From Sorex araneus (lineage: Eukaryota; Chordata; Mammalia; Eulipotyphla; Soricidae), in contig NC_073304.1 in the NCBI RefSeq assembly GCF_027595985.1, positions 217,436,000 to 217,499,999 on the forward strand: a DNA stretch of 64,000 nt, read 5' to 3'. Under the pieces are notes generated by a model. It was given only the letters and a program-made list of their open reading frames with translations, ran no database searches and was not told the origin of the DNA. Positions within the stretch are counted from its first letter, which is position 1. The number at the start of each line of letters is the position of its first letter. Below, piece after piece: positions 42,301-43,521 of the stretch. The position numbers and the translations under genes are program-made.

Positions 42301-43521
42301 GGTGACTGGGGGGGGCTTGTACTCCTGCCCCACGTTGACAATCAGTATGTCTGTTATGTGCGATTTTTCACCCCGTTGTGTTTTGGGTCAGGATTTTAAA
42401 GAAAGATATTTTTATGGTAATTGTTGCTCGTCTATTTTACTATATATTTATGTAATAAATATATGATGAAAATAACCCCCTTGGGCACCCCCCTTAGACT
42501 CGTGTGCTGTTTCCCTATATCCTCCCATCTGCTGGCAGAGACCCCCCATCCCACACACTGACCAGATGGAGAGGTGCCCCCACCCCCAGCCTTGGCAATA
42601 TTACCAGCCCCCCCCACGCCCCGGCCCCCGGCAGTGCCCCCGGCCCCCCAAAGAGCACACAGTACAGGAGTCAGCTGCGAACTATTGGATTTGAGACAAG
42701 AATAGAACAGCTCGGGGTGGGGGTGGGGGCGGGAGCCAGAGAGTGGGGTGGGGGGGGGATAGTGGTTTAAACAGGGGAGGGGTGGGAGGTGTGCAGAGGG
42801 CGGAGGGAGGGAGGCAGGTTATTTACAAGAAGGCTCAGGGGGCCAGAGGCTCATCTCGGAATATTTTATAACAATATAAATAAGATTCTGGTTTGCTTTT
42901 CCTTTTCGTCTCGCAAAGGAGAGAGAAGTGCAGAGTTCGATTCTGTACAAGGGGGCAGCGGCGGAAGGCCGGCCGGGCGGGTCACTGGGCGTCCACCCGG
43001 AAGGACAGCAGCTTCTCGGAATGCATGTTGTTCAGGGTCCGCAGGTCCGGCAGCTTGAGCAGCAGCTTGGTGAAGCGGGAAGTCTCCAAGGGCCGGTTCT
43101 TCAGCACCAAGGCCCGAAGAGCCCGCAGCAGCGTCTCCTGGAGCTGCTCCACCGATGCGGAGTTCTCCGTGCCGGAGCGGTCTGTGGGGAAGGCGACAGC
43201 CGTGAGGCAGACACCACCAGCTCCTCGGGCGAGGAGGAGGAGGAGGAGGAGGAGGAGGCGGCGGTGGAGGAGGAAGAGGAGGTAGCGGAGGCGCAGGAGC
43301 CCCAGGTCCTCGAGGAGCCGCTCCAGTTCTACCCCCAGGTCTACGCGGAGCCGCACCAGGTCTACGCAGAGCCGCCCCAGGTCTACGCGGAGCCACCCCA
43401 AGTCTATGCGGAGCAGCCCCAGGTCTACGCGGAGCAGCCCCAGGTCTACGAGGAACCGCTCATGGTCTACGAGGAGGAGGCCACCGACGCCGAGGCCGCA
43501 GGCTGCGCAGCCTCTCCCTGA
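27917..43521 (+). CDS. THRA: THRA, isoform alpha2 (c-erbA-alpha2) with an expanded C-terminal tail
   Basis: Shares residues 1-370 with alpha1, then leaves from the internal donor AAG|GTGACT at 39200/39201 inside exon 9 and joins 42919-43521. The known alpha2 form lacks helix 12, does not bind T3 and antagonises T3 receptors weakly. The unique tail begins [12 protein letters not shown] and ends AASP, as in human. It is 200 codons here, giving about 570 aa against 490 in human. After the CK2-type stretch TTSSSGEE come Glu475-483 and Glu487-491, then six heptads (510-551) of the form QVYAEPP, then an acidic end. The frame is open throughout and the splice sites are canonical. The first 263 bases of the exon are antisense to the NR1D1 last exon. 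Expression of the expanded form is inferred. Confidence 0.88.
30032..30099 (+). CDS. THRA: THRA exon 3
   Basis: Acceptor CCCCCTTCCAG, donor TCAG|GTGAGC. Encodes the basic stretch [20 protein letters not shown] (N-terminal nuclear localisation signal region). Confidence 0.96.
30504..30604 (+). CDS. THRA: THRA exon 4, first zinc finger
   Basis: Acceptor CCTCCCCAG, donor TGCAAG|GTATGG. Encodes [12 protein letters not shown] then the four-Cys first finger and the start of the recognition helix. Confidence 0.97.
30780..30935 (+). repeat. Ancient MIR-like repeat in THRA intron 4
   Basis: TGAGCCTCAGTTTCCCCATC at the start and GTGCCAGGCACGGGAG near the end match the MIR core order. Confidence 0.7.
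31316..31490 (+). repeat. SINE copy, old
   Basis: Head GAGTGGAGCGACAGCAGGG, tail GTGACCCAACATTCC. Confidence 0.68.
31493..31758 (+). repeat. SINE fragment and SINE copy
   Basis: A truncated, diverged copy (about 31493-31590) ends in AATAAATAAA; a fuller copy follows (about 31592-31758). Confidence 0.68.
31947..32282 (+). repeat. Two tandem SINE copies with target-site duplication
   Basis: The first copy (31947-32121) is bracketed by AAAAATCCAACAACAG on each side. The second (about 32135-32282) begins directly at the repeated site and has a shortened body lacking AGTGCAGAGCCAGG. A diverged fragment precedes at about 31812-31930. Confidence 0.85.
32465..32705 (+). repeat. Old SINE copies
   Basis: A fragment at about 32465-32560 and a fuller diverged copy at about 32566-32705. 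Confidence 0.6.
33217..33398 (+). repeat. Young SINE with target-site duplication
   Basis: AAAACTATTAGAGTTCA flanks both ends (about 33200-33216 and 33399-33415). The body is near consensus. Confidence 0.92.
33437..34495 (-). repeat. Run of six SINE copies, all minus orientation
   Basis: Copies at about 33437-33541, 33547-33712, 33720-33895, 33896-34076, 34077-34250 and 34282-34495. The third and fifth are the best preserved. The block ends about 320 bp before THRA exon 5. Confidence 0.82.
34812..34959 (+). CDS. THRA: THRA exon 5, second zinc finger
   Basis: Acceptor CACTCCCAG, donor GGACT|GTAAGG. Encodes [17 protein letters not shown] to CIAVGMAMD: the end of the recognition helix, the second finger and the C-terminal extension start. 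Confidence 0.97.
35320..35525 (+). CDS. THRA: THRA exon 6, hinge and start of ligand-binding domain
   Basis: Acceptor CTTTGCCCAG, donor TTCCTG|GTAAGG. Encodes residues 124-192 with the basic segment [17 protein letters not shown] and [18 protein letters not shown]. Confidence 0.97.
35997..36800 (-). repeat. SINE cluster in THRA intron 6
   Basis: Minus copies at about 35997-36272 (one copy with an internal duplication of its CTCAGGAATTACCCCTGG part), 36275-36447, 36460-36638 (young) and 36640-36800 (old). A lone plus-strand tail, GGGTATGACCCAAAAAGAAA, sits at 35942-35961. Confidence 0.8.
37042..37188 (+). CDS. THRA: THRA exon 7, ligand-binding domain
   Basis: Acceptor CTCCCTCCAG, donor TCCGAG|GTGAGT; 49 codons starting [20 protein letters not shown] and ending KKLPMFSE. 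Contains the coactivator/corepressor groove residues of helix 3. Confidence 0.97.
37692..37950 (+). CDS. THRA: THRA exon 8, ligand-binding domain
   Basis: Acceptor TCTGCTGCAG, donor CAACAG|GTACCG. Encodes [20 protein letters not shown] to [11 protein letters not shown], including helices 4-9 and the T3-pocket strand around [15 protein letters not shown]. Confidence 0.97.
38261..38434 (-). repeat. Young SINE in THRA intron 8, with target-site duplication
   Basis: TGTACTTCAGGTTTTGG at about 38244-38260 recurs at about 38435-38451. The insertion split an older SINE fragment beginning at about 38196. Confidence 0.92.
38548..38710 (-). repeat. SINE copy, old, minus orientation
   Basis: Reversed body GGAGCTTCCTCCTGGCTCTG with a degraded head. 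Confidence 0.65.
39073..39323 (+). CDS. THRA: THRA exon 9 (alpha1 terminal coding exon; alpha2 uses 39073-39200)
   Basis: Acceptor CACCCCCGCAG. The alpha1 frame continues through [20 protein letters not shown] to the AF-2 helix and TAA at 39321-39323. The internal donor AAG|GTGACT at 39200/39201 removes helices 11-12 in alpha2. Confidence 0.97.
39886..39990 (+). repeat. Polypurine (GAA/GA)n run in the THRA alpha1 3' UTR
   Basis: AAGAAGAAGAA, an A-run, then GAGAGAGAGCGAGAG-type units over about 100 bp with almost no pyrimidines. Confidence 0.88.
41128..41215 (+). repeat. (CA)n microsatellite in the THRA alpha1 3' UTR
   Basis: CA run interrupted by CG and TG steps. Confidence 0.9.
42454..42459 (+). 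terminator. THRA: Poly(A) signal AATAAA for THRA alpha1
   Basis: The canonical hexamer lies in an AT-rich block (TTTATGTAATAAATATATGA), about 3.1 kb after the alpha1 stop and about 520 bp before the NR1D1 stop codon on the other strand. Confidence 0.7.
42600..42981 (-). other. NR1D1: NR1D1 3' UTR (end uncertain)
   Basis: No AATAAA occurs on the minus strand here. The TATAAA variant at 42870-42865 in an AT-rich patch is the most likely signal, giving a UTR of only about 130 bp. The patch coincides with the region just upstream of the THRA alpha2 acceptor on the plus strand. Confidence 0.4.
42919..43521 (+). CDS. THRA: THRA alpha2-specific terminal exon
   Basis: The acceptor TTTTCGTCTCGCAAAG ends at 42918. 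200 codons lead to TGA at 43519-43521. Residues 371-391 lie opposite the NR1D1 3' UTR, 392-458 opposite NR1D1 coding exon 8, and 459-570 opposite NR1D1 intron 7. A second AG at 43034-43035 (GTTGTTCAG) would delete exactly 39 codons in frame, matching the reported rat alpha3/vII variant. Confidence 0.9.
42982..43181 (-). CDS. NR1D1: NR1D1 exon 8, terminal coding part
   Basis: Acceptor CGCCTTCCCCACAG ending at 43182. Encodes [20 protein letters not shown] to FRVDAQ and TGA at 42984-42982. All 200 bases are also TR-alpha2 coding sequence on the plus strand. Confidence 0.97.

Follow-up and report, generated by a model that had tools for sequence, protein, structure and literature searches.

In the shrew Sorex araneus, TR-alpha2, the non-hormone-binding thyroid hormone receptor isoform encoded by THRA, is predicted to carry a C-terminal tail enlarged in frame by poly-Glu runs and by an array of tyrosine-containing heptads, and the whole of this expansion faces an intron of NR1D1, the gene on the opposite strand. 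The two genes are convergent, tail to tail (THRA on the + strand, NR1D1 on the − strand), within a 64-kb stretch (contig NC_073304.1, positions 217,436,000 to 217,499,999 of the forward strand; hereafter the window, with positions counted from its first letter). The alpha2-specific tail is 200 residues long here and 120 in a published review (PMC9266318), and thus differs in length while its start and end are kept. The layout of the sequence makes it very probable that the tail grew by slippage and tandem duplication in the part of exon 10 that is free of NR1D1 coding. A consequence for the receptor, in which the added negative charge would imitate phosphorylation, is put forward tentatively and by analogy. 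An in-frame tail expansion with such an effect seems, on balance, the best explanation of the locus as a whole, and we hold it with reserve.

The coding part of TR-alpha2 exon 10 occupies 42919..43521 (+), lies behind a non-canonical AAG 3′ splice site and encodes 200 residues plus a stop, opening with EREVQSS and closing with AASP. In-silico splicing joins it to 370 residues shared with TR-alpha1, giving 570 residues for TR-alpha2 and 410 for TR-alpha1. Directly before the acidic part of the tail stands a serine cluster (DTTSSSG, 43210..43230, +), in which a motif scan places CK2-type sites (S-x-x-E) at S472 and S473, a third CK2-type match being T559 close to the C-terminus. The cluster adjoins Glu runs at 43231..43281 (+), composed of nine GAG codons, AAV (GCG GCG GTG) and GAG GAG GAA GAG GAG. 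There follow a detached heptad, PQVLEEP (43300..43320, +), which agrees with the repeat unit at 18 of 21 nucleotides (nt), seven in-frame 21-bp units encoding PQVYAEP-type heptads (43333..43479, +), and the end of the protein with the conserved AASP and stop (43480..43521, +). The array, delimited with Tandem Repeats Finder (TRF) and a count of units, measures 147 bp and supplies residues 509–557 of 570; six of its copies are close to the repeat unit (18–21 of 21 nt) and one is degenerate (15 of 21). The TRF call itself (43333–43476) has a period of 21, 6.9 copies, 85% matches and a score of 197. Since 183 of 282 positions over 43219–43521 match at a lag of 21, far above the maximum of 109 reached in 2000 dinucleotide shuffles, the 21-bp periodicity is not a product of chance. 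The unit is a multiple of three, the frame runs uninterrupted through the array to the conserved AASP, and the window contains no N. Past SSS, the tail comprises 97 residues, with 30 Asp or Glu, 8 Tyr and not one Lys or Arg.

A sequence-only reading of the same stretch had described this tail, and its interpretation is partly supported here. The 200-residue exon with its EREVQSS start and AASP end, a length beyond about 120 residues, the 9 + 5 Glu codons and the very acidic, tyrosine-rich character of the tail all hold, and the proposed junction from 39200 to 42919 fits the splice sites and keeps the frame at the level of genomic sequence. Its count of six 21-bp units at residues 510–551 was essentially right, in that six are close; our own count is seven, over residues 509–557, plus the detached copy. 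Missing from it was the key structural fact, namely that the expansion lies opposite the last intron of NR1D1.

On the − strand, the coding part of NR1D1 exon 8 (42982..43181, 200 bp with its stop) is antisense to TR-alpha2 residues 392–458. This two-strand coding block is exactly 200 bp and unexpanded, the overlap being published as 200 bp (PMC9266318). Next to it lies NR1D1 intron 7 (43182..44134, −, 953 bp), with the 3′ splice site CCCCACAG, its last base at 43182, and a branch-point-like CTCAC whose A is at 43203. Upstream of both that splice site and the branch-point-like site, the whole expansion faces intron 7; its first element, the GAG run, begins at 43231, at a distance of 49 nt from the splice site. 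According to PMC3047299, the alpha2 phosphorylation sites are opposite this last NR1D1 intron, where NR1D1 coding imposes no constraint on them. We envisage that GAG slippage and 21-bp tandem duplication enlarged the segment of exon 10 that NR1D1 leaves unpinned, and that growth would have been tolerated opposite the intron since the remainder of exon 10 is kept fixed by NR1D1, an origin argued from position in one species. When the NR1D1 strand is read from 43620 to 42982, the exon 8 frame is open across the final 439 nt of intron 7 and yields LRVDLGL-type heptads. Reading from exon 7 into intron 7 meets a stop at 44010–44008, so that a retained intron 7 would truncate NR1D1.

Compared with an uncited background sequence of the human exon (120 letters; the source of all human letters used here), exon residues 1–87 of the shrew are identical at 82 of 87 positions: all 21 in the first part of the exon and 61 of the 66 that belong to the two-strand block. 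Farther on, 24 of 33 aligned residues agree with the human sequence, and 80 residues are left unaligned. Acidic residues past SSS number 30 of 97 here against 6 of 17 in human, the net charge going from −6 to −30. In a gapped alignment, human EEEPEVCE falls on the second Glu run and not on any heptad. The EEPQVYE-like ancestor that the sequence-only reading suggested for the heptad is an ambiguous case, human EEEPEVCEDLAG matching the Glu stretches slightly better than the heptads. Its ungapped scores are 21 for the poly-Glu/EVAE stretch (487–498), 20 for the first Glu run (475–486), 19 for the detached copy (495–506) and 17 for the last close heptad (541–552). The shrew shares with human and rat TR-alpha2 the donor after LLMK, the AAG acceptor, the G30 element, the 200-bp two-strand block, the start and end of the tail, and a serine cluster followed by acidic residues, and differs in the length of the tail (200 rather than 120 residues) and in its poly-Glu and seven Tyr heptads.

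Published alpha2 splice elements also include SE-alpha2, TR-ISE3 and ESX10 (PMC9266318); the signals covered by our test, which were the exon 9 donor, the AAG acceptor and G30, are present in the genomic sequence. The alternative 5′ splice site in THRA exon 9 is found after LLMK, and its GT donor (ATGAAG/GTGACT) and the exon 10 acceptor (GCAAAG/GAGAGA) are consistent with splicing from 39200 to 42919 with the frame maintained; an AAG acceptor of exon 10 has been described for eutherians (PMC3047299). The G30 splice-control element, followed by TCA, the antisense of the NR1D1 stop, lies at 42951..42981 (+), and at exon 10 positions +33 to +63 it has 20 G in 31 nt and no T, its published composition being 63% G and 0% T (PMC4569393).

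As for the effect of the expansion, we suggest as a possibility that the tail acts as a built-in mimic of phosphorylation. In rat TR-alpha2, DNA binding increases when two tail serines are dephosphorylated, and the phosphorylated form collects in the cytoplasm (PMC9266318). By analogy, the roughly 80 added residues, probably disordered, strongly negative and placed directly past the serine cluster with S472 and S473, would imitate the phosphorylated state through their constant negative charge; such a receptor would bind DNA more weakly and be cytoplasmic, and would compete less with TR-alpha1. We infer disorder from an AlphaFold2 model of the 200-residue exon as a single sequence, in which exon residues 80–200 form neither helix nor strand and the predicted local distance difference test score (pLDDT) is 45–67 by block, with a mean of 51.9 for the exon.

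A number of points weigh against this interpretation. The effect is argued by analogy only, the rat serines S474–475 are absent in human (PMC9266318), and the AlphaFold2 run was made without an alignment and hence is no proof of disorder. Several frames are open across this GC-rich stretch, so that an open frame is weakly informative. Among the six close units, five of the eight distinct changes are synonymous, with P = 0.04 without a CpG correction and 0.17 with it; when the seventh unit is included, the count is 5 of 12 (P = 0.22, or 0.56 after CpG correction), and one antisense frame scores equally well in this test. TR-alpha2 is known here from the genomic sequence of one assembly alone. 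In addition, AATAAA and ATTAAA are absent from 43522–45200 (+), that is, within 1.7 kb past the alpha2 stop, and a scan of the same interval for eleven poly(A) signal variants returned only CATAAA (44061) and AATATA (44500), so that the signal appears to be a weak variant at best. As eutherians are said to have a conserved poly(A) signal for alpha2 (PMC3047299), alpha2 mRNA may be made poorly, with 3′ end formation that is weak or located elsewhere. The CATAAA at 44061 sits within an apparent remnant of a mammalian-wide interspersed repeat (MIR).

About as likely as the mimic effect, and a serious contender, is near-neutral growth: the tail of a weakly active isoform, disordered and free of constraint, would have let a GAG microsatellite and a GC-rich minisatellite of 21 bp drift. 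It shares the origin by slippage and duplication and denies the effect, the protein working as in other mammals. Confinement of the expansion to DNA facing the NR1D1 intron agrees with it, as do the synonymous-count P values, which span 0.04–0.56 depending on the units included and the CpG correction, the many further tandem repeats in the window (68 TRF rows, some overlapping), and the description of TR-alpha2 as a weak dominant negative of poorly understood function (PMC9266318). Less easily accommodated are the large change in charge past SSS (−6 in human to −30 here) and the divergence of the six close units (5–24% pairwise, mean 14%; mean p-distance 0.137, Jukes–Cantor 0.15), which have nevertheless gathered no stop or frameshift up to AASP. 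At assumed rates of 6 × 10−9 to 2.2 × 10−9 per site per year, this divergence would correspond to 13–34 million years, a weak estimate that ignores homogenisation between units. Coding minisatellites as a class resemble the shrew array in their short GC-rich tandem units, a multiple of three in length and located in disordered regions, whereas the position of the shrew array is set by where an antisense coding overlap ends. The androgen receptor, likewise a nuclear receptor, has length-variable repeats in a disordered region, its poly-Gln and poly-Gly tracts; these differ in being single-residue runs in the N-terminal activation domain, without an antisense gene.

The remaining explanations would shift the weight from charge to RNA, to the assembly or to tyrosine. 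The effect could lie at the level of RNA or DNA, with (GAG)n as a purine-rich exonic splicing enhancer for alpha2 or with an antisense (CTC)n pyrimidine tract changing how intron 7 of NR1D1 is spliced, the peptide being a by-product. We consider this improbable, although alpha2 splicing depends on exon 10 elements and is affected by NR1D1 antisense RNA (PMC9266318). More than 400 nt separate the heptad array from the 3′ splice site of alpha2, and on the NR1D1 strand the array is not rich in pyrimidines (45–55% in six 20-nt bins over 43342–43461, with 30% in the bin before 43342 and 70% in the bin after 43461). GAG runs are known as splicing enhancers in general, and such an action would be putative here. 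The Glu-coding stretch itself (43231–43281), read on the − strand, is a pyrimidine-rich (CTC)n run that lies 49–99 nt upstream of the splice site of NR1D1 exon 8 and may affect the splicing of that exon. A little less probable still is that the repeat is an assembly error or that alpha2 is a dead isoform, unexpressed in this species. The canonical poly(A) signal missing within 1.7 kb of the stop and the use of one assembly only speak for it; the frame kept to AASP and the retained G30, AAG site and alternative donor speak against it. Collapse, false duplication or assembly error is unlikely from the sequence, because the array is only 147 bp long, its close units differ by 5–24% and the frame reaches AASP; units so distinguishable should be spannable by ordinary reads.

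The most far-reaching alternative concerns the tyrosines, and we rate it as very unlikely. The V-Y-A-E-P heptads would be substrates of an Abl/Src-type kinase and, in their phosphorylated form, ligands of several Crk/CrkL-type SH2 domains, as in p130Cas, so that the docking array would give cytoplasmic TR-alpha2 an adaptor function. Four YxxP motifs lie between residues 512 and 550 (Y512, Y519, Y526 and Y547), above the mean of 0.96 expected from composition, and 0.6% of 20000 shuffles reach four; this count, however, follows from one duplicated unit, so that the shuffle is no evidence of function. YxxP is the Crk SH2 consensus, and at least three in one intracellular protein are termed rare in passages of PMC2689226 and PMC5043372; V-Y-A-E-P is also similar to the Abl consensus GEAIYAAPFA (PMC3373263). 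Against this, the P is missing from two units, which read YAEQ, and from the last, which reads YEEE, and the kinase and binding steps are putative. Equally far from probable, judged by the same motifs, is that Abl-type sites in the heptads, once phosphorylated, would form a spaced series of four to six docking sites to which Crk/CrkL- or Nck-type SH2 domains could bind. The substrate domain of p130Cas/BCAR1 has 15 YxxP motifs (PMC2689226, PMC5043372) and, like the shrew tail, clusters them in one segment; TR-alpha2 differs in having four, in strict heptads, on a nuclear receptor. The tail was also considered as a relative of p130Cas and rejected, as Pfam found no SH3 or FAT-like domain in TR-alpha2. 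Were the docking array real, it would couple tyrosine-kinase signalling to a non-hormone-binding thyroid receptor, through adaptors or through a charge switch in DNA binding. The shrew lineage is noted for its extreme metabolic rate.

Beyond the tail, both genes look alive in the sequence as far as tested (NR1D1 at exon 8). The THRA coding exons common to TR-alpha1 and TR-alpha2 (residues 1–370; 27917..39200, +) were delimited with GT-AG borders, Pfam and a PDB match, at 27917–27969, 30032–30099, 30504–30604, 34812–34959, 35320–35525, 37042–37188, 37692–37950 and 39073–39200; borders followed GT-AG (AAG for exon 10) and were picked so as to yield the known protein. The TR-alpha1-specific end of exon 9 adds 40 residues and a stop (39201..39323, +). 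zf-C4 and Hormone_recep are the only Pfam families in the 570-residue TR-alpha2. In the ligand-binding domain (LBD), TR-alpha1 residues 147–410 are identical to PDB 3hzf at 261 of 264 positions (counted from the alignment), and one of the three mismatches is the first aligned residue, a cloning end of the chain. In the exon at 35320–35525 (+), Ile→Phe (EEMFRS) and Ile→Val (LIHVATE) occur near the start of this otherwise identical LBD. NR1D1 exon 8 (43181–42982, −) agrees with PDB 8d8i at 64 of 65 residues, the comparison with a structure covering that exon only; the NR1D1 exons were inspected and left unjoined. An AT-rich segment at 42411–42460 carries AATAAA on the + strand (42454) and AGTAAA and CATAAA variants on the − strand, and may correspond to the back-to-back poly(A) region of THRA and NR1D1 described in PMC4569393.

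Searches for relatives returned little. Pfam gave no family for the exon 10 peptide or for the NR1D1-strand read, and a PDB sequence search gave five matches at chance level (best E 1). A pattern search of viral contigs matched 600 stretches with none confirmed, and one of genome contigs matched 583 with none confirmed; these collections cover viruses, bacteria and archaea and are uninformative on other mammals. Among open-licence PMC papers, the heptad peptide and SSSEEEPEV occurred in no text, THRA with Sorex gave nothing, THRA with shrew gave none on the topic by title among the matches listed, and thyroid hormone receptor with Eulipotyphla gave only off-subject matches, as did the shrew SINE. 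Elsewhere in the window, ARAGORN called nine tRNA-like sequences, eight Ala TGC (2839–2911, 7943–8015, 31953–32025, 32140–32212, 34173–34245, 59309–59381, 60035–60108 and 61708–61780) and one Val TAC (6961–7033), of which only 6962–7032 passed the Rfam tRNA threshold; we take most of them to be heads of a tRNA-derived, shrew-type short interspersed element (SINE). Long GA and CT simple repeats lie within about 780 bp at 21741–22519 (TRF).

The shrew THRA/NR1D1 locus illustrates cleanly how coding on the opposite strand may determine the places at which a protein can grow. It also presents a natural variant that alters the segment of alpha2 credited with phosphorylation control, with TR-alpha1 and, as far as covered (exon 8), NR1D1 intact, and the tail may serve as a natural experiment on this receptor isoform.

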